A DNA stretch of 48,470 bases from Orenia metallireducens (GTDB lineage Bacteria; Bacillota; Halanaerobiia; Halobacteroidales; Halobacteroidaceae). Location: NCBI RefSeq assembly GCF_003001995.1, contig NZ_PVNB01000026.1:1-48470 (forward strand), given 5' to 3'. How positions within the stretch are numbered: position 1 is the stretch's first letter; every line of letters starts with the position of its first letter. The position numbers were made by a program, and so were the translations under genes. The notes beneath the pieces are model-generated. The model saw only the letters and a program-made list of their open reading frames with translations. It searched no databases and was not told the DNA's origin. This document shows positions 2,290 to 44,734 of the stretch, piece by piece.

Positions 2290-2325
2290 TTATGCAGTAC
2301 TCCCTTCTTACCTTTTCTTAAAAAT

Positions 2326-3204: not shown

Positions 3205-3207
3205 CTC

Positions 3208-4029: not shown

Positions 4030-4040
4030 TTTTTAACCTC

Positions 4041-4811: not shown

Positions 4812-4837
4812 TATAACACCTCCTAAATTAATTTAAT

Positions 4838-23488: not shown

Positions 23489-23489
23489 T

Positions 23490-24692: not shown

Positions 24693-24697
24693 TTAAA

Positions 24698-25462: not shown

Positions 25463-25467
25463 AATTA

Positions 25468-27564
25468 TCAGCCCCCAAACCTAGCAAAGAGACTCTGCTT
25501 ATCATCCTGTTTTAATTTTTGGTCTATCTCCTTTAATATCTCTTCTTTAATTTGAGATAAATCTTCTCCTAATTTATTGGATAAATCTTGAATATCACCT
25601 TCAACTATATTTTCAATTTTTGTTAATCTGGCTTCCAAGTTGGCTAAATCATTCTTAGATAACTTATCTTTTAAATTTTTATAAATTATCTCCTTAATCT
25701 TATTCTGACTCTCTTTATCTCTAGCTTCTAATTTAGCAACTACATCATTAAATCCACTTTGGAAAATCTTATTCTGCTCTGTGAAATTATTCATAATCTC
25801 TTCACGGTCAATAATAAACTCTTCTAATAACCCTGTTAACTTAGTAAAAGTATTTGGCATTTCCTCTAACATCTCATCAAGTTCAGTAATAGTTACTCCT
25901 AATCGGTTAGCTATCTCCGCCAAATTATCATCAAAGCTCTGGAAGGTTCTCTCTAAACCTTTATGAGTATTCTCAGCAAATTGATTCATACCATCAGTTA
26001 AATTATTATTTAACTTAGTAAAGTTATTCTCAATAGAAGACCAGTAACTTTCAATCTTATTCACCTGTTTATTCATACTAACCATATGACTTCTTCTCAT
26101 CTCTTCAAATTCTTGTTGACTATTGATTAATTTATCTAGTTTATCACCGGTCATCTCTTCTAAAGTAATTAATTTTGAACCTACATCATTTAATTTACTT
26201 ACATTTTTATTTAAGTTTTGATTTACCTGCTCAAATTCAGTGATATAAGTTGATAGATTAGATAACGCCTCTTCAGTAGAGTGTAATAACTCATTCTGTT
26301 GCTTAGCTCCTTGACTGACTACCTCAATCAATCCTTCTGTCTCTTTTTTAGTCTCTTTCTGCCACTCAATAACATCTTCTAGGGTATCCCTTAATGCTTC
26401 AAATTGGTGATCAAAAGCTTCATTAAAGGTACTTAAAAACTTGTTGACCATCTTGTCTATACTTTCAGCCTGTTTGTCCATAGAGAACCCAGCTAAATCA
26501 TCCATAATATTACGCATCTGAGCAATGTGGGGAACAAGATTGTCATTCATAGCCGACTCTATACTATTCACCATATCCTCTCTACTTGCAGCTGATTCAT
26601 CAACAAAACTTTCAATATTAGAGTTCATACTCTGTATAGAAGGAGCTATTGACTGCTCTACTGCTTCTTGTAAACCATTGACCAGTTCAGGAATTAAGGT
26701 ATCACTAACAAATTCCTTAGTGGTATTAATATGCTCCCGTTGATTATCAACTATCTCATCTAATAAGTTACTTTCGATTCTAATCGGTAACACTCTATGT
26801 AATTCATCATTTAATTCTTCAATCTTTCTTTTGGTATGGCTGATTAAAACCTTATCTAATAAAGTCCATAATAATGAAAAACCGATTGCATATAAAGAAG
26901 AAGTAAAAGCTACTCTCATCCCAGAAATTAAAACTGTAATCTGTTGTTTAATCAGATCTACATCAGCGATATTATCTAAACCATCTAATCCCTTAACTAA
27001 CCCTAAAAAAGTACCTAAAATCCCAATTCCTGTTAACAGACCAGGAATTGCATTAGCCAAAGTCCTATTAGAATATTTATTAACTAGTTTATTAACTCCT
27101 AAATAATAATTTGTATCTAATATCTTATTGGGATTAGCTTTACTATTTACTATATTGTAGTAATTTTTCCAATCTTCTTTTAATACATTACTACTTTCAT
27201 TAAAAATTTTATTAATATTTACTATATTATTCTCTGAATTAGAAACTTCTCTTTTTAACTTCTTTATTTCAGAATTCACTTTCCACAATTTTTTATTAGT
27301 TCCAAAAAAACTTATTATTGCAAAACCTACAATAAGTATTTTAAATATTGTTACAATCTTTTCTACTGAATTTGCCTCTGATTGATTTGAAATAATTAAA
27401 ATTAGAATTAATGAGATTACTAAACTAGCCCCATAAAATCTAAGAACACTATTTCTAACCCTATCCTCCTCATCTTTCCACCATAAAGATAATCTAGGAT
27501 TAATCAACCCTATAATTATGAATATAATTGACCCTAAAAGCAATAAAGATAATAATAATTCCAT
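25468..27564 (-). CDS. zorA: Zorya protein ZorA, MotA/ExbB-like with long tail
   Basis: A 698-residue inner membrane protein. Membrane segments lie near 2-21, 43-60, 70-88, 172-191 and 218-240. The last two carry the MotA/ExbB core (GLLTGIGILGTFLGLVKGL and FTSSLYAIGFSLLWTLL). Residues 245-690 are a long helical, coiled-coil cytoplasmic tail, the hallmark of ZorA, thought to pass the signal from the envelope to ZorC and ZorD. RBS GGGGGAG precedes the ATG. First gene of the operon, with an extended -10 promoter 30-40 bases upstream. Confidence 0.92.
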   Translation of the reverse strand: MELLLSLLLLGSIIFIIIGLINPRLSLWWKDEEDRVRNSVLRFYGASLVISLILILIISNQSEANSVEKIVTIFKILIVGFAIISFFGTNKKLWKVNSEIKKLKREVSNSENNIVNINKIFNESSNVLKEDWKNYYNIVNSKANPNKILDTNYYLGVNKLVNKYSNRTLANAIPGLLTGIGILGTFLGLVKGLDGLDNIADVDLIKQQITVLISGMRVAFTSSLYAIGFSLLWTLLDKVLISHTKRKIEELNDELHRVLPIRIESNLLDEIVDNQREHINTTKEFVSDTLIPELVNGLQEAVEQSIAPSIQSMNSNIESFVDESAASREDMVNSIESAMNDNLVPHIAQMRNIMDDLAGFSMDKQAESIDKMVNKFLSTFNEAFDHQFEALRDTLEDVIEWQKETKKETEGLIEVVSQGAKQQNELLHSTEEALSNLSTYITEFEQVNQNLNKNVSKLNDVGSKLITLEEMTGDKLDKLINSQQEFEEMRRSHMVSMNKQVNKIESYWSSIENNFTKLNNNLTDGMNQFAENTHKGLERTFQSFDDNLAEIANRLGVTITELDEMLEEMPNTFTKLTGLLEEFIIDREEIMNNFTEQNKIFQSGFNDVVAKLEARDKESQNKIKEIIYKNLKDKLSKNDLANLEARLTKIENIVEGDIQDLSNKLGEDLSQIKEEILKEIDQKLKQDDKQSLFARFGG

Positions 27565-28527: not shown

Positions 28528-31206
28528 TTACCAAGATTTTTTTAGTTTTTCTAACTTAGATTTTTCATCTAAAACCTTAGTACAAATTTCCCAATCACTT
28601 GTTACAACTTGTTCTTTATATCTAATCTCAAATGGATGCTTTTCAGGTACATAGTCGATAACTTTTTTTGCTTCTTCTTTTTTTCCTATTGCAATATTAA
28701 TCCATACATCCTTTAAAACATCAGGTAACTGTCCAAAAATCTCTGTAATACTTTTTAATCGCTTAGATAATAACTCATGTACTCTATCTTCAACAGAATC
28801 CTTATACCTCATATTATATAGATATATTTTACTAAATCTTTGTCCCCCTCTTTGAATACGACCTTTTCTCTGTTCTAGCCTAGTAGGGTTCCAAGGCATA
28901 TCAATATTAATAAGTCTTCTTAAAACCTGTAAGTTTAAGCCTTCTGCTGCAGAGTCGGTTCCTATTAAAATTTTCAAGTTATAATTTGTTACCATTTCTT
29001 TAATATCATCTTTGGTTTTTCTGTGAAATTGGTCATTAAGAAAATATCCAGATTTATTTCCACCAGCATAGATACCTATCTTTTCACCTTTAAAATCTTT
29101 TGATAGTTTATTAGCAACCCATTTAGCTGTATCATAGTACTGAGAAAATATTATAACCCCTTCTTCTATCCATTTCTCACTTCTTAATAACTCTAACAAT
29201 TTATTATATTTAGGATCTTCAGCTTTATTAGAAGTCAAAGAATATACATATTTACAAAGAACTTGGTACTCTTCTTCAGTTAAATCCTTAATCTCACTAT
29301 AATTCTCTTCCTCTTCTTCAAAAACTGAGTCTAAGTTGCCACCCCAGTCGTTCTTCAGTTTCAAACCTGTATTTTTCCCTGCTTCAATAGAACTTCCTAT
29401 CCTTTTCAAAAGAAGTGTCTTTAAAAATCCACCACCTTTTACCCTGTTAGAAATCATCTCACAAAATTCTTCTGCATATTTGTATGCCTCACTCATATAA
29501 CCAGTTAATAGTAATGGAGCTTCATCTATAACCTCTACTTCAATCTTATCTAAATAAGGCTCTCCTGTTTTAGGGTTTGTTTCATTTTCTAAATACTTTC
29601 TTTCTCTTCTTACTACGTGCCTTATATAAGGATTATAAAGGCTAAAAAAATCTCCCATTAAAAAATCAGCATATCCTTTATTATGTATTTCTAATTCATT
29701 ATAACCTTTAGGAAAAACAACAACTTCATCATCAATATCTTCAGAAACTCTAAGCATTTGAATATTCAAGCCTTCATTAGATGGTGGAAAAGGGTTCTTA
29801 ATCCAACGCCATTTTTCAGTAGGACTTAAACCTTCACCATTCGTTTTTATTAAATTCAGACCTTCATCTATCTTTCCTTTTTTTCTCCAGAAAGAATTTT
29901 GCGAACCCAATACTTTATCAGTTCCTTGTGATAAAACATTTAATAAATCCCAAAGCTCTATTGGATGAAGCTGAATTGGAGTAGCAGTTGCTAATAACAT
30001 ACTCTTAGTTCTAGGAGCAATTTCTAACAAGTATTCATATAAATTATTGCCTTGAAAAGAATGAAAATTTCCATTCTTATCAATCTTTTTTCTCCTTGCA
30101 TGATGAGCTTCATCAACTATAATACATTCATATTTTTTACTTAAGAGATAATCAACAGAATCAGATTTTGCAGTAATAAGACCCTGAGATATAATACCAA
30201 TTCTTCTTGGACACTTAATAATATCTTCTTTTCCTTGACTTGGATATTTCATATCATTTTCATCAATCCAGTTCCTACCATCCCACCTTGCAGTTGGTAA
30301 GTGTAATAACTTTTTTAGTTCATCCTGCCATTGAGTCATTAATGTCTTTGGAGCAATAATCAAAACAGGTTTATCTCCATATAAAGCCATTAATTCTGCA
30401 CTCATAGCTAACTGAATAGTCTTTCCTAAACCCACTGGATCAGCTAAGACATACCTAGCCCCATAAGGTTTCTTATGATCTTTAAAAGCCTTATTAATAA
30501 AATACTTTTGATGTTCCCATAAGCCAAAGTTTTGGCGATATATAGGCGATTCTACACTGACAGAAGCAGGTAGTTCCTCATCATCCTTTATATCTTCTAT
30601 ATCAGCAACAACTTCTCTCTCAGCAAGCCTTTTTATATCTTTTATAATAAAATCAGGCATTTTAATTGCTGCGGGACTATTCCATAAAGCATCAAATTCT
30701 TCTTGAACCCATTTAACTGCTTCTGCAGAGTTATCTTCCCATACTAACTCATAATTTAACTTCCAAGCACTTTTAGATTCATTAGCACTACCTAAAAATG
30801 AAGTTTTCTCACCATTCTCTAAAGTAATAACTCCTGCTTTACCATGAATCAATCCAAACTCTTTATTAGGTAAAACTCGAACTTCTAATCTATCCGACAC
30901 CAAATAATCATATAATTTCTTTAAACGAAAATGACCATTTTCTAACTTTTCCGGCTCACTTTCACACCATTCCCTACGAATTGCTTTCTGTGCATTCTTA
31001 GCAGTTTCAACATCTTCAGGTTGTAAATCAGAGTTACAAACAATTCTAATTTTGCCCTCTATAGAATCAAGAGCTTCTCCTGCGACTTCAAAAATAGAGC
31101 TACTAAAATATCCTGCAATTCTATCATATGACTTTGCATTCTCTAATCTTTTATTAAGAAGAGAGTCCGATATGGACTCTCTTCTTGAAGAATATCTCTT
31201 TATCAT
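28528..31206 (-). CDS. SNF2-type helicase with N-terminal PLD-like domain
   Basis: An 892-residue protein. Residues about 20-170 are phospholipase D-like with the motif HGK in LIHGKAGVI (119-127) and GSANES. Residues about 225-800 are an SNF2 helicase: WEHQKYFINKAF, Walker A DPVGLGKT (256-263), DEAHHARR, then TDSAAEGLNLQ and RKGRIQRGGQ. Only one HxK is seen, so a PLD nuclease would need to dimerise. It follows the methyltransferase gene by 9 bases, with GGGTGAG before its ATG. Such helicases occur with DUF1156 methyltransferases and DUF499 ATPases in defence operons. Confidence 0.85.
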   Translation of the reverse strand: MIKRYSSRRESISDSLLNKRLENAKSYDRIAGYFSSSIFEVAGEALDSIEGKIRIVCNSDLQPEDVETAKNAQKAIRREWCESEPEKLENGHFRLKKLYDYLVSDRLEVRVLPNKEFGLIHGKAGVITLENGEKTSFLGSANESKSAWKLNYELVWEDNSAEAVKWVQEEFDALWNSPAAIKMPDFIIKDIKRLAEREVVADIEDIKDDEELPASVSVESPIYRQNFGLWEHQKYFINKAFKDHKKPYGARYVLADPVGLGKTIQLAMSAELMALYGDKPVLIIAPKTLMTQWQDELKKLLHLPTARWDGRNWIDENDMKYPSQGKEDIIKCPRRIGIISQGLITAKSDSVDYLLSKKYECIIVDEAHHARRKKIDKNGNFHSFQGNNLYEYLLEIAPRTKSMLLATATPIQLHPIELWDLLNVLSQGTDKVLGSQNSFWRKKGKIDEGLNLIKTNGEGLSPTEKWRWIKNPFPPSNEGLNIQMLRVSEDIDDEVVVFPKGYNELEIHNKGYADFLMGDFFSLYNPYIRHVVRRERKYLENETNPKTGEPYLDKIEVEVIDEAPLLLTGYMSEAYKYAEEFCEMISNRVKGGGFLKTLLLKRIGSSIEAGKNTGLKLKNDWGGNLDSVFEEEEENYSEIKDLTEEEYQVLCKYVYSLTSNKAEDPKYNKLLELLRSEKWIEEGVIIFSQYYDTAKWVANKLSKDFKGEKIGIYAGGNKSGYFLNDQFHRKTKDDIKEMVTNYNLKILIGTDSAAEGLNLQVLRRLINIDMPWNPTRLEQRKGRIQRGGQRFSKIYLYNMRYKDSVEDRVHELLSKRLKSITEIFGQLPDVLKDVWINIAIGKKEEAKKVIDYVPEKHPFEIRYKEQVVTSDWEICTKVLDEKSKLEKLKKSW

Positions 31207-31215
31207 ATTCTCACC

Positions 31216-34131
31216 CTATACCCCTTCATTTTTTAATGACTCTCTAAGTAACTTAGCATACTTAGCATCTTGATGCCAATGTTCCATAGTATCTATCATC
31301 TCTAATTTAGAAATAAAAGTTAGTATCTCATTCATAAGTGGTTTTTTATACCAATAATCTTGACTTTGATTAAATACACTTTTGATATAACTACGCCCTG
31401 AAGCTGTAGATTGATTTTTAGCAGCTTCATAAATAGCAACTAATAAGTGCCTTACTAATGACCCCTTAAAATCATTGTCATTTAATTTATTATCAAGGTA
31501 ACTCATCTTATACTCTAATGGTGCTTTTAAACGAGCATTATTAGCTTCAAAGCTATAAAACATATCTTTATAATCTTTAACTCCAAAGCCTTTAGCTAAT
31601 TCTTGATAGGCACCTATACTATGTTCATTATTCATTTCAAGTTCTAAACCTCGGATAAAATATCTTTCAGTATTTGATAACTCAAACCAATGATTCTTTT
31701 CAAATTCATCAGGGATCAAATAACTGTTTGCTACATCTCGTGCTTTTTTGATTAATTTTTCAACTGGATTCTCTTCACTTCTATCACCTGCTAACCAATA
31801 ATCAATATCTATACCATCAATCTCTCCATAACTGGTCAATACTTTCAATGCTGCAGCATATGAAGCCAGTAAATAATCTGCATCAGTAAAATCAGGCAGA
31901 TCTTTATAATCAATCCCTTTCATAGAATCAATCATACTCTGAACTTCATATTGGATCTCATCATATACTTCATCCTGAAAGGCAAAATCATCAGAAGTCT
32001 GCTTCTGTAATACTAATAAAACAGTACCTTTAACATAATTACCCTGTTTAATACCACTAGAACTAGTTTCAGTTGATATATTCCATGCTGAAGCTACCTT
32101 TAAACCTGCTAACCATAGAATCATTGTTAACTCTGACCAAACCTTTACATCTTGATGGGTAAACATCACCACTTGGTATCCATTATCAGGCATATTATCG
32201 GATAAGTTTTTATAAATTTCAACCATACCTTCATTAAAAGATTGTCCCGTTCCTTTAACGGCCAATATCCTTTTAGAATCAGTATACCATTCGGGGAAAG
32301 TATTTTTTAGTAATGACTTATCCCAAACTAAGAAAAATTCAGATAATTCATGGTAATTAACTGCATCTGCATACGGAGGGTCTGTTATCCAAATATCCTG
32401 TTTTTCATTAATATTTCTTGCATCCATTGGTCTTACTTTGCTTTTACTTTCAAATTCATAATTATTAATATTATAAAACCAACTATTACTTAACATAGAT
32501 AAACTTCTTGTACTATAACAAAACAAAGTATTTAAAGCTTGATTATAAAAAGTAGATGAACCTTTTTCATTTGCCGAACTAGAATCCCAAAAACTTAATT
32601 TTGAATTCCAAGTAGAACATTTGTAAACACCCAATAAACTAATAACCTTATCTTTTTGAGTCTTAGCTTTTTCATGAGCAACTTTTATTAAAAGCCCATT
32701 AATTAATAATTGCCTATGATTAAATAATTGATGCCAATATTGCCAACCTCTAGTCCTAATTGGTTCATCAGTTTTTTCACCTGATTTAATTTTATCAATA
32801 GGAATATATCCTTTTTTTTGCCATTTATCAAAGCGTTCTGATAATAACTCAATAGATTTTTCTTCTCTTTCTAAATCTTCTTTTGTTGGACTAGTATAAT
32901 ACCTTTCTCCTTCATTATCAATATATTTTATAGCATATAGCCTTTCTTTAAAAATATCATCTTCAGCAGACATAAATTTTTCTTTTTCCCAAGCTTCTAC
33001 TCCATAAATAATTTCATTACTAGTCTTTTTATCTTTTCTAATGCTTGTTATAGGTGTTTTACTATCGCAATGAGGACAATATACTTTATTGCTTACAACT
33101 GTAGATAATTTATCAGCTTCTTTCATCTGCTTCTTACTTGCACCTTGAATAATTTCAATATCAAAATTATTATTATTGCCATTTTCTTTTAATAAAGCTA
33201 CAGTTTTGGTACCTTTACCAATAATCCATGAAGGAGCTAAGGGAACATCATAACCACATTCAGGACATTCTACTTCAGCACAATAAAGATATGAGTCAGC
33301 ACGATGCCCCTGTTCATTATGTTCAATTCCCCATTCAATAATCTGTTTATCAACCTCATCATAAACTTTTTGTTGAAATTCTTTTAACTCTTCAACCTTT
33401 TCATCTGAACACCCTGTAATATTTAATGAAGCCCAAGTTAAAAGTGAAGCTGCTGGGTTTAAATCTGAAGCAAATACATCAGCCCCCATACGCCCTGCTT
33501 CAAAAGGAATAGATCCCCCACCTGCAAAACAATCTCCAACTTTAGGTGTATGACCAAAACGCTTTTCACCTAACTGCTGTATCAACTCTTGCAAGTTAGA
33601 AGCATTAGTTTCTAAATGTTCATTGATCTCTTTCCAGGCTTTCTCATTGATTAATTCAACTTCTTCAGGTCTTTTACAATAACTTAACTTATCATCATAA
33701 GATAATCTATTAAAAGCTATTCTTTGTAACTCATCTTTCATCTTCTTTTTATTTTCTCTCTTCATACCTAATGGATATTTAGGCTTTTTAGCAGTAGATC
33801 CTTCCCTGAAAAATTCTTTTCTCTCTTCTTCATTAGTTAGTTTCCATAAATCTTTTTTTGATATATTATCTTTCTTTCTTAACCACAATCCATCATCATC
33901 CATAGTCATAATCTTAAGAAATATTTCTCTATCCTTAGAATAATCATTTGATACAGGCATTAAAACCCCTAATAAAGTAGCCCTAACTAAAACTAATGGT
34001 TTTCTTCCCCACCATTTACCTAGTCCTGTTAAAGTTTGTCCTAAATTCGCTTTTCTTTCTTTATAACTTTCTTTAGATATTCTAGAAACTGGAAATTGAA
34101 CCTCTATAAATGATTTGCTATAATCTAACAA
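31216..34131 (-). CDS. DUF1156 DNA adenine methyltransferase with zinc ribbons
   Basis: A 971-residue protein. Residues about 5-60 are the DUF1156 start (FIEVQFPVSRISKESYKERK, then GKWWGRKPL). The SAM site is in GDCFAGGGSIPFEAGRMG (199-216) with SDLNPAA. The catalytic DPPY lies at 584-587, followed by ADAVNYHELSEFF. Two Cys pairs, CPECG (289-293) and CPHCD (352-356), form a zinc ribbon. It should methylate adenine, marking self DNA for the partner helicase and ATPase. I start it at TTG, with AGGAGG 6 nt upstream. Part of a five-gene operon. No separate restriction endonuclease is seen. Confidence 0.88.
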   Translation of the reverse strand: MLDYSKSFIEVQFPVSRISKESYKERKANLGQTLTGLGKWWGRKPLVLVRATLLGVLMPVSNDYSKDREIFLKIMTMDDDGLWLRKKDNISKKDLWKLTNEEERKEFFREGSTAKKPKYPLGMKRENKKKMKDELQRIAFNRLSYDDKLSYCKRPEEVELINEKAWKEINEHLETNASNLQELIQQLGEKRFGHTPKVGDCFAGGGSIPFEAGRMGADVFASDLNPAASLLTWASLNITGCSDEKVEELKEFQQKVYDEVDKQIIEWGIEHNEQGHRADSYLYCAEVECPECGYDVPLAPSWIIGKGTKTVALLKENGNNNNFDIEIIQGASKKQMKEADKLSTVVSNKVYCPHCDSKTPITSIRKDKKTSNEIIYGVEAWEKEKFMSAEDDIFKERLYAIKYIDNEGERYYTSPTKEDLEREEKSIELLSERFDKWQKKGYIPIDKIKSGEKTDEPIRTRGWQYWHQLFNHRQLLINGLLIKVAHEKAKTQKDKVISLLGVYKCSTWNSKLSFWDSSSANEKGSSTFYNQALNTLFCYSTRSLSMLSNSWFYNINNYEFESKSKVRPMDARNINEKQDIWITDPPYADAVNYHELSEFFLVWDKSLLKNTFPEWYTDSKRILAVKGTGQSFNEGMVEIYKNLSDNMPDNGYQVVMFTHQDVKVWSELTMILWLAGLKVASAWNISTETSSSGIKQGNYVKGTVLLVLQKQTSDDFAFQDEVYDEIQYEVQSMIDSMKGIDYKDLPDFTDADYLLASYAAALKVLTSYGEIDGIDIDYWLAGDRSEENPVEKLIKKARDVANSYLIPDEFEKNHWFELSNTERYFIRGLELEMNNEHSIGAYQELAKGFGVKDYKDMFYSFEANNARLKAPLEYKMSYLDNKLNDNDFKGSLVRHLLVAIYEAAKNQSTASGRSYIKSVFNQSQDYWYKKPLMNEILTFISKLEMIDTMEHWHQDAKYAKLLRESLKNEGV

Positions 34132-34166
34132 ATTAATCCTCCTTTTATTTCTTCATAAAAATCTTA

Positions 34167-34703
34167 TTAAAATAACCTTTGAACAAAGCTACCAACCAAT
34201 TTATTATCGACTGGGTTTTCAGTTAGTGCATACCTTAGAGCCACTCTCCAACCTCTCTTATCACCATAATGACCAGTTGAAGCATTGGTCATGGTAAAGA
34301 GCCACCAACGCTCTTCAGGAGATAAACCCAACCAATTTTTTATTGCTAAATCAATTGCTGCTACTTCAGCATCTTCGATAGCCCAAAGTAAAAGCACCAA
34401 CTCTTTTCCTAATAACCTCTCAAAAGGAATTAAGTAATTATCAAAATCACCGCTATTTAAACCATCTTGTTTTAACCTTCTATTGAACTCTTTTTTTATA
34501 ATATTTTTTACTTTATTCCATTTACCTTTATCTAATATTATCTTTTTATCCCTATTATCCATATCATTTATTTGCTCTTCATCATCCCAAGTGAACCTTT
34601 CATAAATTACAATTTTTTTATTTCCTTTAGGAAGTTCTAATAAAAAATGATGATTGGTTTCTTTTGGATTAAAACCAAATCCAAATGTTTCAATTGTACT
34701 CAA
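34167..34703 (-). CDS. DUF3780 family protein
   Basis: A 178-residue soluble protein starting with FGFGFNPKETNHHFLLELP, a typical DUF3780 start. It continues with an ERFTWDDEEQ segment and a C-terminal part rich in Trp (SPEERWWLFTMTNASTG, then GWRVALRYALTENP). DUF3780 is known to me only from operons with DUF499 and DUF1156 proteins; no activity has been assigned. The start is TTG with AAGGAG 8-12 nt upstream. It lies 12 bases after the DUF499 gene and 35 before the methyltransferase gene. Confidence 0.8.
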   Translation of the reverse strand: MSTIETFGFGFNPKETNHHFLLELPKGNKKIVIYERFTWDDEEQINDMDNRDKKIILDKGKWNKVKNIIKKEFNRRLKQDGLNSGDFDNYLIPFERLLGKELVLLLWAIEDAEVAAIDLAIKNWLGLSPEERWWLFTMTNASTGHYGDKRGWRVALRYALTENPVDNKLVGSFVQRLF

Positions 34704-34715
34704 AAAACCATCTCC

Positions 34716-37700
34716 TTAAGATTGATAAAACTTATTTTTAAATTCTTTTAAATTAAAACCATTTTTAGTAAGCCAATTCTGAAAATCTCTTCCTCTTTTA
34801 AACCTAATACCATCAATAATAGCATTAATATCATACTTTTTGCCTTGAATTAAATTATTTGTAATATTTTTAAGTTCATCTTCAATAATATCCATATCAT
34901 CTATTTCCATATTATTAACCGTTAAAGTTATTGAAAATTGCTCTCCACCTCTACCATTAACTATTACTTGTAACTTCTCAATAGATGCATCTGTTTCTTT
35001 TAGGAATTTTAATGCTTCATAAGTATATTTAGTGCCTGACGGTCTTAAGTCTCTATTTAATTTAACTGACTTATCCATATCAATTGTTACTTCAACATCT
35101 TTGACCTTATATTGTAAAACCTCTGAGCGAATATCATACTTTTGGTTTATTGCTATAGCTTGTATGAATTTTGCACCTTTGGGGATTCTAAAAGCTTCTT
35201 TATAAACTCCTCCATTAGCTTCTGGAGAGGAACCATCTGTAGTATATTTAATCTCACAGTCATTTGTTGAAGCCTCTAATTCCATATAGTCATGTCCATC
35301 TTTTGTGAACTCTTTATATTTTAAATCAATATCATTTTCCCATCGAATTGCTTCTCCAGTCTCACTAACACCCGATGAATCTATTGCTAAGAAATAATAA
35401 ACAAGTTCTTCGGCTTTAAAGGCAGATAAATTATCTATTGCTTTAGACGCATCACCTGGTTCTTCTCCAATTTCATACAATACCTTATCAGCATTCATAG
35501 GTGATAGTTGAAGCATAACGGTTCCATCATCTTCCCTATTAATTTCATTAATATTAACACTTGTTATTTTTGCAGGTGGTGTACTATCAATGTAGTTCCC
35601 ATCTTCAAACCAAATCTCTTTATGGAGAGAATCTTCTTTCAGATCATTAAGAGCACTAGGCTTATGCCATAACCAGTTTGTTTCTGTTGCAGTTCTTTCC
35701 ATTAGTTCATTCCATGTCATTCTATCCCTAGTAAAAATCACTTTATTAAATCGTCTTCTTAATTTATCAGGCTCAATATCTCTAGTAAATTTCATTTCTT
35801 CTTCAAGGGTTTGAGCAACTTCTTTTTCTGCATTAAAATTATTCTGAGCAAACTTCATGGTTAAATTTTTATTTTTTAACCTTTTACTTCGAGGATAATA
35901 GATAGTTGTAAAAGTTTCTCTTAAATTAGAATATAACCTTGCAGCAGACTTATCTCTTAAAGTTAATCCTTGCTGCATCTCACTATCTCGCTCACTTACA
36001 TTATCAGCTTGCATCCTAGTGATAATACTCTTTATTGCCTTTACTCTTTTTCCAACCTCTAAGAGATTATTCATAACATTCTTTTGACCTGTCAAGAACA
36101 TTACTCTATTTTTATATTCACATTCTTCATAAAATTGATGAAGCTCTTTCTTTAACCCATCACTATCATCACTTGGCTCAGCAATTATTAATGTTATTTT
36201 ATTTTTATCTAAAGTAATTTCTTCAATTGAAGGAAACACCATTAATTTTTGGTAACAGTCTTTAGCTACTGGCTCAAAATGTTCTTTTAATAAACCTTTT
36301 ATATATAACTTAGACTGTTCTCTTGATATATTCTTTATTTCATCTTGCATTTCAGCTACTATATTTTTTGTCTGTCTAAAAAGTAATTTATTATGATGCT
36401 TGTATAAATACCAGGCTCTTTGTTGTAACTCATCGATACCACTTCTTATTTTAGTAATATCATTATCTGGTCCTGCCAGATATGTAAAAATTTCATTTAT
36501 AGATAAACCAATTATTGCTTCAGTTGCTTTAGATAAAGAAGACATTAAAATTAACTTAGCTACATTTTGGATATCTTCAGACTCTGCTAATTTATCTAAT
36601 CTTTCTGCCACAGCATGTCCATTACTTGCAATATCATGACTTATTGCATTAACAAATTCAGGCTTAATGGACTTTATTTCATTAGCCATTTCAGAATCAT
36701 TTAAATTAATATCATAAGGATTAATTAAATAATTACTAGCTGCCTTATCAGAATCTTTAAAAATACCTTTTAACATTTTTTTGGTTAATCTAATAACTCC
36801 TCTTGTCTTTTGAAAACCTTGATTTTCTTTAAAGCGTTCAACTAACTCTTTAAAAGAAGGATGAAATGGATATGTATCTCTTATCATAGAAGAAAATTCA
36901 CTTGGTATTTCATCTGTATAACCCATTTCAACTGCTTCTTTTATGCTTTTACGATACCCTTTAACAACTTTTTCAATCTCAGCTTCACTTGGTAACTCTT
37001 CAAACATTCTAGTCTTTAAAATTTCATATAAATCATTAGTATTACTTGATACAGGTTCAAGATTTAAAGAAAAACGACTAATTTCACCATCAAGTTCTTT
37101 AAACATTCCTTTGATTACTTCAGATTCTTCTTCATATGTTGCTTCTAAATCAGATATTACAAGACAAACATTAGATAACTCTTTCTTATTTATTGCATTA
37201 AGTAAATTAGCTATAGCTGTTGTTTCAATATCTAAAAGTGTTCCTTGTCCATACTCTCGAGTCTTAGCATTATTTAAATATGGAGGTAATTCATCCAGTA
37301 AAATTAATGTTGGAGTAGAACTTTCAAGTAAATTAATCCATGCTGTTTGACCTGGAGCTTTAAGAGGAGAATAGTATTCATTAAAAAGTTCTTTTCGTTT
37401 TAATTGCTTTGCAATCTCCCCCCAAGTTCCAAATTCCATATCAGATTCTCTTCCAGTAATAGAAACCGTTCTGATTTTTCCTTCTACATCATTATATTTA
37501 CCATCTAATATTTTCCTTCTCAATTCAGGGTTTTGTGCAAGTAATCCCAAGGCAATCATATTATGAGTTTTACCTCCACCCATTGCCTGAGTTAATTTAA
37601 TTATACTATTACCCGATCTATTTCTAAACTTATTCATTGCTGTATCGAATAGTATTTCCATATTTTCTGTTATAAATGTTTCTTCAAAAAATCTTTCTGC

Positions 37701-37805
37701 ATTTATAGAATCATTCCTTAAATCAGATAAATCAAGAACTTCATCTTTCATTTCTTTACTATAAACGCTTTCTCTAACTTTTACAGCCTTATTAAGTTTT
37801 TTCAT
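34716..37805 (-). CDS. DUF499 P-loop ATPase
   Basis: A 1029-residue protein. Walker A is in QAMGGGKTH (73-81) and Walker B in LILLDELPPYL (about 165-175), within an AAA-like domain of the DUF499 family. The C-terminal third contains a chitobiase-like small beta fold (YTTDGSSPEANGGVY, then KFIQAIAI), perhaps for protein or DNA contact. The family accompanies DUF1156 methyltransferases in defence loci, an arrangement (helicase, methylase, ATPase) that I recall being listed as Hma. First gene of the operon, ATG with GGAGG 13 nt upstream and a candidate promoter about 90 bases before. Confidence 0.85.
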   Translation of the reverse strand: MKKLNKAVKVRESVYSKEMKDEVLDLSDLRNDSINAERFFEETFITENMEILFDTAMNKFRNRSGNSIIKLTQAMGGGKTHNMIALGLLAQNPELRRKILDGKYNDVEGKIRTVSITGRESDMEFGTWGEIAKQLKRKELFNEYYSPLKAPGQTAWINLLESSTPTLILLDELPPYLNNAKTREYGQGTLLDIETTAIANLLNAINKKELSNVCLVISDLEATYEEESEVIKGMFKELDGEISRFSLNLEPVSSNTNDLYEILKTRMFEELPSEAEIEKVVKGYRKSIKEAVEMGYTDEIPSEFSSMIRDTYPFHPSFKELVERFKENQGFQKTRGVIRLTKKMLKGIFKDSDKAASNYLINPYDINLNDSEMANEIKSIKPEFVNAISHDIASNGHAVAERLDKLAESEDIQNVAKLILMSSLSKATEAIIGLSINEIFTYLAGPDNDITKIRSGIDELQQRAWYLYKHHNKLLFRQTKNIVAEMQDEIKNISREQSKLYIKGLLKEHFEPVAKDCYQKLMVFPSIEEITLDKNKITLIIAEPSDDSDGLKKELHQFYEECEYKNRVMFLTGQKNVMNNLLEVGKRVKAIKSIITRMQADNVSERDSEMQQGLTLRDKSAARLYSNLRETFTTIYYPRSKRLKNKNLTMKFAQNNFNAEKEVAQTLEEEMKFTRDIEPDKLRRRFNKVIFTRDRMTWNELMERTATETNWLWHKPSALNDLKEDSLHKEIWFEDGNYIDSTPPAKITSVNINEINREDDGTVMLQLSPMNADKVLYEIGEEPGDASKAIDNLSAFKAEELVYYFLAIDSSGVSETGEAIRWENDIDLKYKEFTKDGHDYMELEASTNDCEIKYTTDGSSPEANGGVYKEAFRIPKGAKFIQAIAINQKYDIRSEVLQYKVKDVEVTIDMDKSVKLNRDLRPSGTKYTYEALKFLKETDASIEKLQVIVNGRGGEQFSITLTVNNMEIDDMDIIEDELKNITNNLIQGKKYDINAIIDGIRFKRGRDFQNWLTKNGFNLKEFKNKFYQS

Positions 37806-38059: not shown

Positions 38060-39001
38060 CTAATATAATTTATAAATTTTTTCACTCAACTCAACAGCAC
38101 TATACCTAGTCCATAATAACATCGTCCATTTTCTCTGCTCTTTACTTAAATCTAATTTCTGTAATTTCTCTATCATATCCCAATAAGTTATAATCTTAAA
38201 CTTTTCACTTCCTCTTTTTAATATACTTTGAAACTCTTGAGCTTCTTTAATCTTATGCCCTTCAGGAGTAAACAAACCTGTTACTATATAATCATACTTA
38301 CCACTACTTAAAGCCTTTTCAGCAATTAATTGATTTCTAAATAATTGATTAAACTTTTTACTCTCTACATAATCTTCATAATCCTTTAAGAATTCACTCC
38401 TTGAATTACTGAATATTCTAAAATAATTATCGTAATTCTTATTTCCCTTTTGACCATAATATAATTTGCTATTACTCGGCTTAGCACTAAAATCATCAAT
38501 ATATTTAACTTCTAAACCAAATAGCCCCAACCCATCACCAATTTTAAATTCAAAAACAACATCAAAAGCTGAATTATCTCCTATCTCAGCAAACTTTGGA
38601 ACATATTCAAACTTAACATCTAAAACCTCTGTTACTTCAGGTATATAGTATTCCAGAAAACTTTTAGCTAACACTTTATCTAATTTAAACTCTGCAAAAA
38701 AATTAAAAGTTGCTGGCTGACTAGATAGTAAATTATTATGTAATCTTTTAGTATTCATAATTCCAGAATCATATTTATCTCTAGATTCTAAAGTTTCTCT
38801 AACTACTTGCCTAATATTCTTAGTCAAGAAATTTACCTTACTACCTTCTCCATTCTTCATTACATTACAAGCTGGATTATCTTTACTACTCTCCCCTTCT
38901 TCTTCACCTAAAACAAAAGTTCTCCACCATCCCTGATGAACTCTCATCCTTTTGCTAGTCTTTCTTGAGGTCCCTACTAAAGTTTTGAAAGTTTCTTTCA
39001 T
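38060..39001 (-). CDS. PD-(D/E)XK nuclease of the PGN_0703 type
   Basis: A 313-residue soluble protein. The family marks are NNLLSSQPATFNFF (89-102) and the nuclease core with Asp147 in NSAFDVVFEF and Glu164-x-Lys166 in GLEVKY, giving D-X16-ExK. The N-terminus has GWWRTF (24-29). PGN_0703-like proteins are predicted Mg-dependent nucleases; few have been studied. It is the last gene of the six-gene operon, 15 bases after the gene upstream, with GGAGG before the ATG. It is the only apparent nuclease of this operon, so it is the best candidate effector. Confidence 0.75.
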   Translation of the reverse strand: MKETFKTLVGTSRKTSKRMRVHQGWWRTFVLGEEEGESSKDNPACNVMKNGEGSKVNFLTKNIRQVVRETLESRDKYDSGIMNTKRLHNNLLSSQPATFNFFAEFKLDKVLAKSFLEYYIPEVTEVLDVKFEYVPKFAEIGDNSAFDVVFEFKIGDGLGLFGLEVKYIDDFSAKPSNSKLYYGQKGNKNYDNYFRIFSNSRSEFLKDYEDYVESKKFNQLFRNQLIAEKALSSGKYDYIVTGLFTPEGHKIKEAQEFQSILKRGSEKFKIITYWDMIEKLQKLDLSKEQRKWTMLLWTRYSAVELSEKIYKLY

Positions 39002-39016
39002 TGTTTAAATACCTCC

Positions 39017-39538
39017 TTATTTAATCAATCTTCTCACCCCAACTATCTTACCTTCCCCATCCTTAACTACTGAATCTGCACAGGTATCGGGAGCAACTAA
39101 ATCCATTCTATGATTTAAAGTATTCTTTACAAAACCACTTACAATATAGATAATTCCTGGTCTAGGACTTGGCAGATTACTAACTATACGAGTATTCTTG
39201 GTTATAACTGGTACTCCTCCAACCTTCATCTTCTCTTCTTTCTTCTGTGATACTCTAGCAGGATTTTTGATACCTTTTAAATCTAATAAAACTTTATTAT
39301 TATCACCCAGCACCCTTATCTGATGAGGAGTACAATTAACAAACTCTACTTTATTACACTGCTGTAAGTTTCTTTTGTATTCCATCTTAACTCGATTCAC
39401 ATCTTTTTCTAATAAGCATCTACTAAATACCTGAGTAAGACCATAATCTACTTCTGAATTAAAGCTATCTAAAAAAACTTGTGACTTATCATCAACTTCT
39501 AACAAGAATTCATCTTCAAGCTTTTTTATTGCTCCCAT
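39017..39538 (-). CDS. Conserved hypothetical protein with NCTPH and VAPDT motifs
   Basis: A 173-residue soluble protein. The N-terminal 65 residues are helical and charged. The C-terminal 110 match a small family that I know only as hypothetical proteins, common in phages and mobile DNA: VNCTPHQIRV, then a PARVS segment, IIYIVSGFV and VAPDT, ending GEGKIVGVRRLIK. Function unknown. RBS GGAGGGG precedes the ATG. It lies 57 bases after the beta-propeller gene and 15 before the nuclease gene. The extra N-terminal part seems specific to this copy and may tether it to a partner. Confidence 0.7.
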   Translation of the reverse strand: MGAIKKLEDEFLLEVDDKSQVFLDSFNSEVDYGLTQVFSRCLLEKDVNRVKMEYKRNLQQCNKVEFVNCTPHQIRVLGDNNKVLLDLKGIKNPARVSQKKEEKMKVGGVPVITKNTRIVSNLPSPRPGIIYIVSGFVKNTLNHRMDLVAPDTCADSVVKDGEGKIVGVRRLIK

Positions 39539-39595: not shown

Positions 39596-40951
39596 CTATT
39601 TTTTTATATCTCTTATTACTTTTAAAAGTTCTATAGCTTGCTCTTTATTCTCTTTATCATGAGCATTTTCATCTATAAATTCAATTAAATAATTTATACA
39701 TTTATCAAATCTTGTCTCTCTTGTCTTAACCTTTTCTCCTTCAAAATAATTTGCACTACTATGCCTACTATTACCACCAAACATTGGCCATGGCGAATCA
39801 CCAATTCCTACACTATCACCCCTAATAGCATATAACTTTCCGTTATCAGTACTAACGTAAATAGTCCCATCTATCCCTAATACAGGACTTGAAGATATTT
39901 CACTTTCTAAACTAATACTCCACTTTTTAATTCCATCAGGATTAATAGCATATATTTTCTTTCTATTAGCGAGATAAACAGTTCCATCTTCTGCTACTGC
40001 CGGAGTAGTCTCAACATAATCTTCTTCGCTTAATTTATAATCCCACTTTAGAGTGCCATCTGAATTTATAGCATGCAATTTTTGCCCATAGTCCCCACTA
40101 CTGCAAATATAAACTGTACCTTGAGGACCAATAACTGGACTAGCTTTCTCAATAACTGTTCCTAAACCACCAAGATTTGTACTCCACCTCTCACTACCAT
40201 CTGGATTGAGAGCATGTACTTCTCCATTAGAAGTTCCAAAATAAATATTACCCTTATTATCAATTGCAGGAGTTGACTCAATATTTCCTCCAAATTTAGG
40301 AAAAAATGCATTACCATCTGTATCATAGCTCCATTTTATATCTCCTTTAGGTAAAACAGCATGTAGTATATTGTTATCACCACCAATATAAACTACTCCA
40401 TTTAATCCAACTGATGGACCTGCCAAATCAAGATAAGTTAAATTTTTAACCCACTTTATTTTCCCATTACTATTTAGAACATATAAATTTCCTTCTTTAT
40501 CTCCAGCATAAATACTCCCTGCTTTACCTAAAGCTAAATTATACTTCAAACTATTTGTGAAAATATCTTTTATAAGACGTAATTTCCATTTGAAAGTTCC
40601 ATCTTTATTTATAGCAGCTATGTACCTTGATGTAGTAACATAAATAGTTCCATCCATAGTTACTGCTGGATAACCATAATTAAAAAATTCTACATCACCA
40701 AATTTTAAATCTCCAATAATCTCTTTAGAACTAATACTCCAAATCTTTTCTCCAAAAGGATTTATAGCATATAATTTTTCAAAGGTAGTAATATACAACT
40801 TTCCTTCTGGTCCAATTGCTACAGGAGATAAAGACATATCACCTAGCTGTATACTCCACTTTATTCTATTTTGAGCTTCTGATAATTCAAAATTTACCCC
40901 AACTACAATAACTATTAAACAAATAATCAGTACTAACTTTTTAATAATCAT
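39596..40951 (-). CDS. Exported PQQ-like beta-propeller protein
   Basis: About 451 residues. A signal peptide or membrane anchor (MIIKKLVLIICLIVIVVGVN) ends near SEAQN. At least seven PQQ-like blades follow (repeats of the type INPDG-KW-GTIYVST). A WPMFGGNSRHS motif comes after the last blade and a helical tail of about 50 residues ends the protein. Such propellers bind partners; no catalytic residues are evident. It should lie outside the membrane, which is odd among DNA-acting neighbours. The ATG overlaps the upstream stop by one base (TGATG), so translation is coupled. It could sense envelope events or a secreted ligand. Confidence 0.8.
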   Translation of the reverse strand: MIIKKLVLIICLIVIVVGVNFELSEAQNRIKWSIQLGDMSLSPVAIGPEGKLYITTFEKLYAINPFGEKIWSISSKEIIGDLKFGDVEFFNYGYPAVTMDGTIYVTTSRYIAAINKDGTFKWKLRLIKDIFTNSLKYNLALGKAGSIYAGDKEGNLYVLNSNGKIKWVKNLTYLDLAGPSVGLNGVVYIGGDNNILHAVLPKGDIKWSYDTDGNAFFPKFGGNIESTPAIDNKGNIYFGTSNGEVHALNPDGSERWSTNLGGLGTVIEKASPVIGPQGTVYICSSGDYGQKLHAINSDGTLKWDYKLSEEDYVETTPAVAEDGTVYLANRKKIYAINPDGIKKWSISLESEISSSPVLGIDGTIYVSTDNGKLYAIRGDSVGIGDSPWPMFGGNSRHSSANYFEGEKVKTRETRFDKCINYLIEFIDENAHDKENKEQAIELLKVIRDIKK

Positions 40952-41655
40952 CACTCCTTATAAAGCTGATTGTATTCTCCTAACCAGATACTATCAAAAT
41001 CATCATTTATCCTTAACTTAATCCTATCCTCTATACTTTTAGGACCACCTTGCTCCTTAATCTCTTCAACCTCTGCTTTGAACTTCTCATAATTACCCCA
41101 CTGAGCATTACCTCCATTGCTCAGCCCTCCATCAACTCCAACACCAAAAGGACTAACCAACACTCTCTTCTGATCCCAGTACTTCTTGATAGGATAATCA
41201 ATCAATAACTCATTACCAACTACCCCTCCACAAACCTCTAAATACAGATCATAATCTTCATCATCCCAAAAGTTATACTTACCAAACTTATCTTGAAACT
41301 TTACGTATATCTCTTCAAAGTTACTAAACTCCTCATAAGTACAGAAACCTCTAAAGAACCACTCAACATCTTGATGATCTCTTTTAGGTCCTTTAGGCAA
41401 CTCTCTTCTACCGATAAAGATTATACCATCAATCTCCTCTTGGAAGTATTCAATTACTGAGCTATTCGCCTTCATTAGTTCTTTTATATTATCTAAATCA
41501 TCCTCTATCATTATCTCTTTACATACCTTGTTAGCTTCCTTTATTAATTCTTTAGACTCTTCTAACTCTGGATTTCTAACCGCTTTTTTCAAAGTAATAT
41601 CAATCTCTTGAACCCGATTAGTCAACCTCTTCTCTACCAAACTCTGTTCACTCAT
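40951..41655 (-). CDS. Unknown protein of the HsdM/HsdS-like operon
   Basis: A 234-residue soluble protein. Residues 1-70 are helical and charged. The rest is rich in Trp, Phe and Tyr with VEWFFRGFCTYEEF, YNFWDDEDYDLYLEV and a Gly-rich VSPFGVGVDGGLSNGGN. I recognise no family and see no catalytic motif. The start is the ATG one codon inside the longest frame, because GGAGG sits 8 nt before it. It lies 33 bases after the HsdS-like gene and overlaps the start of the beta-propeller gene. Given its place it is probably a core part of this system. Confidence 0.7.
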   Translation of the reverse strand: MSEQSLVEKRLTNRVQEIDITLKKAVRNPELEESKELIKEANKVCKEIMIEDDLDNIKELMKANSSVIEYFQEEIDGIIFIGRRELPKGPKRDHQDVEWFFRGFCTYEEFSNFEEIYVKFQDKFGKYNFWDDEDYDLYLEVCGGVVGNELLIDYPIKKYWDQKRVLVSPFGVGVDGGLSNGGNAQWGNYEKFKAEVEEIKEQGGPKSIEDRIKLRINDDFDSIWLGEYNQLYKE

Positions 41656-41687
41656 CAAATCATCCTCCTCTATTTGTTATTTCAACC

Positions 41688-43070
41688 TTAATCTAGAAAT
41701 CCTCTATCCTCTGCAAAACAATCCATCAACATCTCTGATAATTTTCTATCCTCATCCTTACAACTCTCGTATCCTTTAATAATTTCCTCATAAACCCCTC
41801 TAATTTCTTTACTTATCCTTTGCTGCACTTCTTGATTAGGCAGTAGAATCTTCATATCTAACAGAGAATCCAAATTGATATTCTTATGAGCCACGCCCCC
41901 AGAATACCTTTCAAATTGTTTCTTAGCTAATTCACTATTTAGGAATATCACTATATAATAAGGGATTACATCATCTTTTAACCTTAAACGGTAAATATGA
42001 TTATTAAAACTTAAACCCTCACCTTCCTTATTAACCACAGTAGCATATCCCAACTTATAACCAGCATTAACTATTAATATATCTCCAGTACTTAACCTTG
42101 CATATTCCTTTTCTTTTAAGTTGCCATTATTCAATTTTCTCAAATCCAATTCAAACCTATTAATATTTCTACTACTGATATAAAGCAACTTACCTTTAGC
42201 ATTACTAGTCAGTGACGAACCTATAGTCAAATCCTCAACTACTTCTCTTAATTTTATACTCTGGTATTGACTATCTTCCATTACTTGATCAACTACTAAA
42301 TGTTCAGGCTTATAAAATGATGGATGTAAATTCTCCTCTCTTAAAAGCTCTCCTTTAACTTTAAAATTATTTTTGTAATCTACACTATCCAACTTAACTC
42401 CTAACAAATCTAAGAATCTCTTCTCTATTTCTACAAAACGATTATCATATCTCTGTATCAATGATTCTTTTCTTTCCTTAAAAATCTCTACCCTACTCTC
42501 TAATATACTCTTTAAATCTGCTGGTGTAGGAATAGGAATTCTAATCCTCTTAAAATCACTATTTGATATCCTTACAGCTGTAGCACCATAACCATATCGC
42601 TGAAACTGTTTAATAATATCATCTAATTTCAAAATATAAGCTAACAAATCTGAAGAAATATCTATCCTAGGTCTTATAATCATAAAAGCATTAGTTGCTA
42701 CACACCCATCATGCTCTTCACCGACAACTACAACTGTATAATTTTCAACCAACTTAGAAACAATTATATCTCCTCTTCTGACAACCTTCTTAGCTCTACT
42801 AGGCAGATTCTCATAACTATACTCCTCTAATTTATCAACCTCTTCTATCTTTCCAGTATTTTTATTAATAGATCCCAACTCAATATAACGATATTTTTTT
42901 CCTTTCTTTGGCTTTCTGTTTATAATTTCACTTACTTCTCCTAACTTTTTTAGAAAAACCTCACTAAAAGAAGTATCTTTAAATTTAGGATGATGAAACA
43001 TCGGATCCATCCTATCTACAAATAAATCACTATCAAAATCAACCAAATAACTTATCTTATCATCCACCAA
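41688..43070 (-). CDS. HsdS-like DNA specificity subunit with two TRDs
   Basis: A 460-residue protein with the two-fold plan of type I specificity subunits. TRD1 lies at about 20-180, ending FKRIRIPIPTPADLK. A helical spacer (about 185-215, SILESRVEIFKERKESLIQRYDNR) follows, then TRD2 (about 240-415, ending MKILLPNQEVQQRI) and a final helical spacer. Each half opens similarly (RMDPMFHHPKF and LHPSFYKPEHL). It should bind a bipartite DNA sequence and carry the HsdM-like partner, whose gene it overlaps by 8-11 bases. The start is TTG or, with better RBS spacing, the GTG one codon later. Not a fused or broken copy; both halves look intact. Confidence 0.85.
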   Translation of the reverse strand: MVDDKISYLVDFDSDLFVDRMDPMFHHPKFKDTSFSEVFLKKLGEVSEIINRKPKKGKKYRYIELGSINKNTGKIEEVDKLEEYSYENLPSRAKKVVRRGDIIVSKLVENYTVVVVGEEHDGCVATNAFMIIRPRIDISSDLLAYILKLDDIIKQFQRYGYGATAVRISNSDFKRIRIPIPTPADLKSILESRVEIFKERKESLIQRYDNRFVEIEKRFLDLLGVKLDSVDYKNNFKVKGELLREENLHPSFYKPEHLVVDQVMEDSQYQSIKLREVVEDLTIGSSLTSNAKGKLLYISSRNINRFELDLRKLNNGNLKEKEYARLSTGDILIVNAGYKLGYATVVNKEGEGLSFNNHIYRLRLKDDVIPYYIVIFLNSELAKKQFERYSGGVAHKNINLDSLLDMKILLPNQEVQQRISKEIRGVYEEIIKGYESCKDEDRKLSEMLMDCFAEDRGFLD

Positions 43071-44454
43071 AGATACCTCCCCACCTCTTTAATTCTAAGA
43101 TAACATCCTTTAACTCTTCTACATTTTCAGGAGTAGCCATAAAAACTTCATCCTGCTTTTCATCTTCAAACCCCTTATTTTTAACAATAACCAAACTTGT
43201 ATTAATAGCAGTATAAGGTCTATAAATTCCCTCTGGCAAGCTAATTACAGCTTTCAAAATAAACTTATCTAGAATAAATCCTCTAATATCTTTATCTCTA
43301 CTATTAGTCAAGATCCCATCAGGTAGAACAATTCCTAAATATCCACCTTCTTTAAGTAAACTCTGATATAATTCTAAATATAATGCTTCAATCTTAGTAC
43401 TTCTTCCTTGACCTAATTCATATTCTGATAGCAAATCCTTGTCTCTAATCTTTAAACCAAACATAGGACTAGATAATATTAAATCCAAACCATCAGTTAA
43501 TCCCTCTAATTGAGATTTATCAGACCTTAACTTCAAAGTATCTCCGACTAAAAATTTATTATCCTGTCCTAAAATCAAAGACCTAAGCTCTGCTAAATTA
43601 ATTAATCTATGATTATTATCCATCCCAAAAACTTTAATATCATTATTAATAACTTTAGCATCAGTTAATAACCGACCACTTCTTGCCACCCCATCAAAGA
43701 TATTAGATATCTTTTCAAAATAATCTTCAAAAATATCTCTCATAGAATTTGATATCTCTTGGGGAAGAAAATATTCTCCAAAGGCTTTGCTTTTATTTTC
43801 AAACAATTGACTATCTAAAATTTTCATCAATTCCACTCTATCCACATTTTTAAAATCTATATTATTAAATTCATCAACCACTTCTTTCAATGCCTTAGAA
43901 CTTAACTTAATATCACCTTCAAATTTATTCCCATCCTTTCTTATCAGCTCACAATATAAATCCTTTATATTGTCTATTGTAAATCTATTATCAACAGCTT
44001 CTAAATTTCCATTATCTAACTCTAACTTAATCAGAACTAACTTATAAAGCTCTATAAATAATTCCAAAATAGAAAATGATTCAATACTATAAATTCTATC
44101 CAAGACTTCTTCTATCCACTTAGTTATCTCATCTATTCTTGATTCCTTTACTTCTTGTAATATAGGCATCTTATTTAAAGTAGAGATATTACCTCCAATC
44201 AATTGATACCAGTTCCACTCTTCTCTTTCTAGATTAAAAAACCCATAATAATTGATCTGATCAACTTGACTTAATTTAGCTAAAATACCAACTCCCTTTT
44301 CAGAACCACCTTCACTTATATCAACTCCTACAGTTGCCTCTCCCTTTATGTAACCAACCAAATCAAAAGCTATCTTATCATCAACTTCTATAAAAACCTC
44401 TTTTTTTATCTCTTCACAACCAATCGCTTTCAACTTATCAATTCCTATTTTCAA
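43060..44454 (-). CDS. HsdM-like protein with degenerate methyltransferase motifs
   Basis: A 464-residue protein. An N-terminal part (about 1-115) with FDLVGYIKG resembles the HsdR-N-like nuclease fold but lacks ExK. A helical part follows, then an N6-adenine methyltransferase domain (from about 215) with GEYFLPQEI, VLPDGIL and AINTSLVIVKN as in HsdM. Motif I reads FDGVARSGRLL where HsdM has DPACGSGG. Motif IV reads SSPMF (328-332) where NPPF is needed. Both changes predict loss of catalysis and perhaps of SAM binding. The start is TTG (44454-44452) with GGAGG 8 nt upstream. The ATG at 44502 lies between the -35 and -10 of the promoter and cannot be used. First gene of the six-gene operon. 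Confidence 0.82.
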   Translation of the reverse strand: MKIGIDKLKAIGCEEIKKEVFIEVDDKIAFDLVGYIKGEATVGVDISEGGSEKGVGILAKLSQVDQINYYGFFNLEREEWNWYQLIGGNISTLNKMPILQEVKESRIDEITKWIEEVLDRIYSIESFSILELFIELYKLVLIKLELDNGNLEAVDNRFTIDNIKDLYCELIRKDGNKFEGDIKLSSKALKEVVDEFNNIDFKNVDRVELMKILDSQLFENKSKAFGEYFLPQEISNSMRDIFEDYFEKISNIFDGVARSGRLLTDAKVINNDIKVFGMDNNHRLINLAELRSLILGQDNKFLVGDTLKLRSDKSQLEGLTDGLDLILSSPMFGLKIRDKDLLSEYELGQGRSTKIEALYLELYQSLLKEGGYLGIVLPDGILTNSRDKDIRGFILDKFILKAVISLPEGIYRPYTAINTSLVIVKNKGFEDEKQDEVFMATPENVEELKDVILELKRWGGIFGG

Positions 44455-44470
44455 AAAGAACACCTCCAGT

Positions 44471-44564
44471 TCACTCGTTATGTTTATTATATCTTTATTC
44501 ATTCTTTATGTCAAGTTTTAATAATCACCTTTTATGTTTAACCTGATATTCACTTGATATGTTT
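44471..44564. promoter_or_regulatory. Four direct repeats TCAY-N4-TATG around the promoter
   Basis: Plus-strand copies: TCACTCGTTATGTTT (44471-44485), TCATTCTTTATGTCA (44499-44513), TCACCTTTTATGTTT (44525-44539) and TCACTTGATATGTTT (44550-44564). The shared parts are TCAY and TATGT; the four bases between vary freely. Start-to-start distances are 28, 26 and 25 bp. The first copy lies at the transcription start, the second covers the -35, and the others lie upstream. This is an operator array. Confidence 0.7.
44486..44514 (-). promoter_or_regulatory. Consensus sigma-A promoter of the HsdM/HsdS-like operon
   Basis: On the minus strand TTGACA (44514-44509), 17 bases, TATAAT (44491-44486). Both hexamers are perfect and the spacing ideal. 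Transcription should start near 44479, leaving a leader of about 25 nt before the TTG start. A perfect promoter of this kind normally needs a repressor; see the repeats that overlap it. Confidence 0.85.
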
Positions 44565-44696: not shown

Positions 44697-44734
44697 ATAG
44701 TCATATAGATGTGAATTCACATCTATATGACTAT
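44697..44734 (-). terminator. 38-bp perfect palindrome after the lipoprotein gene
   Basis: The arms 44697-44715 and 44716-44734 are exact reverse complements (centre GAATTC), with no loop. The minus strand continues TTTTATAATT. It lies 54 bases after the lipoprotein stop and is probably its terminator. Confidence 0.6.

Follow-up and report, generated by a model that had tools for sequence, protein, structure and literature searches.

Gene content of the locus

The window, meaning the entire stretch of 48,470 nucleotides of Orenia metallireducens DNA that was analysed, carries on its minus strand an operon that opens with homologues of the type I modification and specificity subunits and continues into defence-related genes:

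43060..44454, minus strand: degenerate HsdM with an N6_Mtase fold; DGVARSG replaces DPxxGxG in motif I, and SPMF replaces NPPF in motif IV
41688..43070, minus strand: HsdS with two TRDs; Methylase_S matched in two stretches, TRD1 resembling 5YBB/3OKG and TRD2 the PacII S subunit
40951..41658, minus strand: p235, matching no known fold; one of the shared-module proteins, with relatives in other genomes that lack the array
39596..40954, minus strand: PQQ-type beta-propeller; missing from the sister locus
39017..39538, minus strand: Unk_01 family protein (Unk01); member of the shared module
38060..39001, minus strand: PDDEXK_13 / REase-ARP nuclease
28528..37805, minus strand: Type-2 BREX-related block, composed of the four genes below
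34716-37805, minus strand: DUF499
34167-34703, minus strand: DUF3780
31216-34131, minus strand: DUF1156 methylase
28528-31206, minus strand: PLD-helicase

The downstream block contains the DUF499 ATPase, DUF1156 methylase, DUF3780 and HKD/PLD-helicase of the Type-2 BREX-related systems (PMC12839542), with DUF1156 and the PLD-helicase scoring above the NCBIfam cut-offs and DUF499 and DUF3780 falling below them while being matched over nearly their whole length. Co-transcription of this block with hsdMS is uncertain because a 254-bp gap precedes DUF499; neither an array nor a strong promoter was found in that gap. No known fold was matched by the structure model of p235, and the HsdM model from AlphaFold was not good enough for use. 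The beta-propeller (39596-40954), encoded between the p235 and Unk01 genes, has a signal-peptide-like N-terminus.

The HsdS resembles that of a type I system in having two TRDs, both of which align to solved S subunits, whereas the HsdM lacks intact DPxxGxG and N/D-P-P-Y/F motifs and no HsdR motor-nuclease is encoded among the ten operon proteins. The specificity of the PacII TRDs (CCC and RCAAY, PMC9613975) was considered as a guide to the HsdS target and set aside as not transferable, the similarity being too low. The N-terminal domain of the HsdM is unlike the usual HsdM N-terminus and is confined, within the class, to two genomes.

Promoter and probable operator array

A promoter matching the consensus at 12/12 positions lies upstream of hsdM and is interleaved with four same-strand copies of a 15-bp site (window 44471-44564), spaced 28, 26, and 25 bp from start to start:

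44471..44485, minus strand: operator copy 1, AAACATAACGAGTGA (plus strand TCACTCGTTATGTTT, from 44471); immediately 3' of the -10 and spanning the predicted transcription start
44486..44514, minus strand: promoter TTGACA-17-TATAAT (TTGACA 44514-44509, 17-bp spacer, TATAAT 44491-44486)
44499..44513, minus strand: operator copy 2, TGACATAAAGAATGA (plus strand TCATTCTTTATGTCA, from 44499); overlaps the -35 and the promoter spacer
44525..44539, minus strand: operator copy 3, AAACATAAAAGGTGA (plus strand TCACCTTTTATGTTT, from 44525); upstream of the -35
44550..44564, minus strand: operator copy 4, AAACATATCAAGTGA (plus strand TCACTTGATATGTTT, from 44550); upstream of the -35

On the plus strand, TCAY and TATG are invariant in all four copies and enclose four variable bases; in the direction of transcription the site reads AAACATA-N4-RTGA. 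When the upstream region was searched, with no motif supplied, for the highest-scoring set of four non-overlapping 15- or 16-mers, the same four copies came out, with the register within two bases, and none of 500 dinucleotide shuffles reached the score of the array. The sequence-only reading had described four direct repeats at 44471-44564, built of TCAY and TATG parts around four freely varying bases and covering the -35 and the transcription start, and this description holds at the exact positions given: copy 2 (44499-44513) shares five of the six bases of the -35 and extends through much of the spacer, and copy 1 lies over the start, which is itself a predicted one. Across the 4.1-Mb genome, ACATAN4RTGA is present 42 times; the array, with four sites in 92 bp, is its sole cluster. 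The start codon of hsdM is probably TTG 44454, preceded by GGAGG at 44467-44463 and preferred since the ATG at 44502 lies 5' of the predicted transcript. No Rfam match was obtained.

A sister locus with two further arrays

Among 59 genomes of the class, only one other, from the same family, encodes the set HsdM-HsdS-Unk01-p235. The proteins of this sister locus (L013) are 45% (HsdM), 41% (HsdS), 43% (Unk01), and 33% (p235) identical to those of the window, and the genes downstream are AddB-like and RecB-like, where the window has its nuclease and BREX-related genes. The sister locus contains two 12/12 promoters, one before hsdM and one before the genes for Unk01, p235, and the RecB-like protein. 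The second of these (L013 8168-8263) lies 3' of a terminator-like hairpin and separates hsdMS from the effector genes. Each sister promoter bears a four-copy array with nearly the offsets of the window: relative to the -35, the copies lie at -50/-25/+1/+29 in the window and at -58/-24/+1/+29 and -49/-25/+1/+29 in the sister arrays.

Fixed-register tests were restricted to the promoter-free upstream copies and run against 5000 shuffles. The score of sister array 1 with the window matrix was reached by 74/5000 shuffles, that of the window array with the matrix of sister array 1 by 9/5000, and that of sister array 2 with the combined matrix of the window and sister array 1 by 11/5000; in this register the upstream copies are significant by themselves. 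The unsupervised search missed sister array 2, placing its best set elsewhere with a score that 70/500 shuffles reached, and the assignment of this array therefore rests on the register test together with its promoter portion, which matches exactly. Two upstream copies of sister array 2 also lack A5.

The site in the sister locus, AAACAYA-N4-WTTAA, is related to but distinct from that of the window; A3, C4, T13, and A15 are invariant in all 12 copies of the three arrays, and the copies of either genome score well below those of the other when the other's matrix is applied. The left half (AAACAYA) is the better conserved and may correspond to TRD1, which is 50% identical between the loci, while the right half changes from RTGA to WTTAA and may correspond to TRD2, which is 41% identical. 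This pattern of half-site conservation agrees with recognition by HsdS as far as sequence can tell. Upstream of the -35, the sister arrays agree with each other at 27/70 positions and with the window at 23-27/70; they are thus no closer to each other there than to the window, and an obvious recent copy does not account for the half-site that they share. In the core promoter region, agreement is 37/46 between the sister arrays as against 32-33/46 with the window. It had been proposed to check whether homologous operons carry arrays of a different bipartite site matched to their own TRDs; the sister operon does carry its own arrays of a related but distinct site, but the match to the TRDs is suggestive only, as just two loci are available for comparison, with TRD identities of 50% and 41% between them. 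Co-variation of the operators with the TRDs is accordingly no more than a suggestion, and an ordinary co-evolving repressor would look alike, given that the sister sites differ by few bases.

Distribution of the array and the module

A three-copy pattern of the array, searched in the 59 class genomes, occurs at these two loci only, besides two apparently unrelated short tandem repeats. The exact promoter-array was searched in the same 59 genomes and in a sample of 398 genomes of the phylum and gave three matches, all in these two loci, with zero exact matches among the controls and none in viral contigs. Within the class, both genomes that have the module thus have arrays (2/2), and none of the other 57 does (0/57). 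Homologue searches of genome contigs, viral contigs, and plasmids returned no further module, the negative for genome contigs being a weak one because the patterns were narrow; the plasmid matches proved to be unrelated methylase loci. Phylum samples queried with HsdM and with its N-terminal domain yielded the sister locus only.

Relatives of p235 and Unk01 occur elsewhere. Two relatives 50% identical to the p235 of the window lie outside an hsdMS context in two genomes of the family (L039 10366-11082 and L040 275-991); these genomes lack arrays, and none stands upstream of these genes. Similarly, Unk01 relatives are found in unrelated loci, e.g., with RAMP or RecT genes. One of them shares its operon with RAMP (type III CRISPR-like) genes (L028 6370-15999).

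Identity of the regulator

The array is likely, and with considerable confidence, the operator of a regulator that the module itself encodes, since the exact promoter-array occurs in no other genome sampled. The regulator must be a product of the shared module or else an unlinked factor that has one target only; if it is any of the module genes, the sites overlap the promoter of its own gene in the window and in the sister locus. The best candidate, favoured here on balance from sequence comparison, is the degenerate HsdM-HsdS complex, HsdS being the only one of the shared proteins to belong to a family that reads bipartite DNA. The site has the form of a type I target, as the sequence-only reading had noted, with two half-sites around a fixed spacer and an adenine available on each strand: A5 and T13 are separated by 7 bp and A3 and T13 by 9 bp, and the adenine spacings of known type I sites are 6–9 bp (PMC12707154, Table 1).

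The main competing reading, considerably less probable, is that p235 or Unk01 reads the operator and that HsdM-HsdS has a separate role, such as sensing or defence. Both proteins are encoded in both loci, their genes are the first behind the second sister array, either of them could bind DNA, and a small dedicated repressor acting on a direct-repeat array is known at a type I island (RptR, PMC12255303). Against this, the relatives of p235, including the two at 50% identity, sit in array-free genomes, those of Unk01 are scattered over unrelated loci, neither protein matches a DNA-binding family, the p235 model has no known fold, and a bipartite, non-palindromic site is unlike that of a homodimer. 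An unlinked host transcription factor, for which the module would merely carry a responsive promoter, is improbable: the two genomes belong to one family and ordinary regulators typically use interdigitated direct repeats, but neither genome holds a second target in the form of the exact promoter-array, and within the class the arrays follow the module without exception.

A control in which HsdM still methylates, or pairs with an active HsdM, so that site methylation rather than occupancy sets expression, would accord with the type I spacing of the adenines on the two strands and with the methylation-controlled promoters of type II systems (PMC12707154). It is nevertheless very improbable, as both homologues are altered: the first glycine of the GxG in motif I is gone, and motif IV is SPMF in the window and NPEF in the sister HsdM (whose motif I is DGSAKMG), whereas complete ordinary HsdMs found in the class retain DPxxGxG and NPPF. 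These degenerate SAM and catalytic motifs also lend support to the earlier description of the HsdM as dead. Least credible of all is an array that arose by chance or as leftover repeats of an AT-rich promoter region; the sequence is indeed AT-rich and copies 1 and 2 are partly promoter sequence, but no shuffle out of 500 matched the array and its layout recurs twice in the sister locus.

Proposed mode of action

If the regulator is the HsdM-HsdS complex, it would retain the bipartite DNA binding of type I enzymes without methylation. Occupation of the array, whose four copies are grouped about the -35, spacer, and transcription start, would deny RNA polymerase access to the promoter and so keep expression of the locus low by negative autoregulation; such exclusion is predicted from the positions of the sites and is to that extent inferred. 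In the sister locus, the complex would act in trans on the second promoter as well, and hence on the effector genes. DNA binding by S needs two M subunits (M2; PMC12707154), which would give a reason for a dead HsdM to be kept under selection; the window and sister HsdMs have lost the same motif positions and yet remain 45% identical. Relief of repression by phage DNA is a guess.

A broader proposal, made tentatively and held with less than even confidence, is that an HsdM-HsdS pair which lost catalysis became a portable, TRD-programmable repressor placed before varied anti-phage effectors, with operators that co-evolve with the TRDs and with titration as a possible means of relief. If true, the dead HsdM-HsdS repressor would constitute a new class of bacterial transcription factor with operators predictable from the TRDs, TRD specificity would be naturally readable from DNA alone, one regulatory module would be common to different defence effectors, and a recognition that once marked self DNA would now set defence gene expression.

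Comparison with known systems

The transcriptional control of type I loci is little known according to a recent review (PMC12707154), and no description of a degenerate HsdM-HsdS repressor was found in searches of open-access papers. The nearest likeness in layout is RptR, a small homodimer that binds a 6-bp palindrome in 9-bp repeats at the promoter of the EPEC RRDM defence island (PMC12255303). There too, direct repeats cover the promoter of a defence operon with type I restriction genes, and repression by RptR is cooperative. The sites in the window are instead bipartite, non-palindromic, and 25–28 bp apart, the copies contain no TAGCTA, hsdM follows its promoter with no small regulator gene in between, and nothing RptR-like was noticed at the head of the operon, where the candidate regulator is HsdM-HsdS. 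Methyltransferase proteins that act as repressors of their own locus are represented by M.SsoII, M.Ecl18kI, and M.EcoRII, which do so through a fused repressor domain (PMC3978073, PMC3695355, PMC12707154); these are active type II enzymes, whereas here the methylase is degenerate and HsdS would recognise the operator. Similarly, C proteins autoregulate restriction loci from promoter-overlapping operators, and the hsd locus of Mycoplasma gallisepticum has a C gene, as cited in PMC12707154, but C proteins are small HTH regulators and no C gene was found at the window locus.

The M2S methyltransferases of type I systems, such as EcoR124I and KpnBI, share with the window a two-TRD HsdS, a bipartite site, e.g., CAAA(N6)RTCA for KpnBI (PMC12707154, Table 1), and adenines spaced by 7 or 9 bp; the window differs in its degenerate SAM and catalytic motifs, in the N-terminal domain of HsdM, and in the absence of HsdR. 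The hsdMS module and its array lie outside the described core of the Type-2 BREX-related systems (PMC12839542), and in the sister locus the module precedes unrelated RecB-like genes. HsdM and HsdS weakly resemble MAD2 and MAD5 of the MADS system, their scores (71 of 720 and 85 of 400 bits) staying far short of the curated cut-offs, and none of the MADS models is matched by the other operon proteins that were tested.

Other features of the window

Downstream of the BREX-related genes, positions 20660-27564 hold a Zorya-like set in which ZorA and ZorB are joined by a diverged ZorC and by a protein that matches ZorD strongly. A WYL-domain regulator of the defence-associated kind is encoded at 9597-10586, not adjacent to the array-bearing operon, and two dynamin-like GTPases with weak matches to LeoA/LeoBC occur together with coiled-coil proteins at 895-6295. 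A perfect 38-bp palindrome followed by a T-rich stretch (44697-44734) is terminator-like and lies behind a lipoprotein gene.
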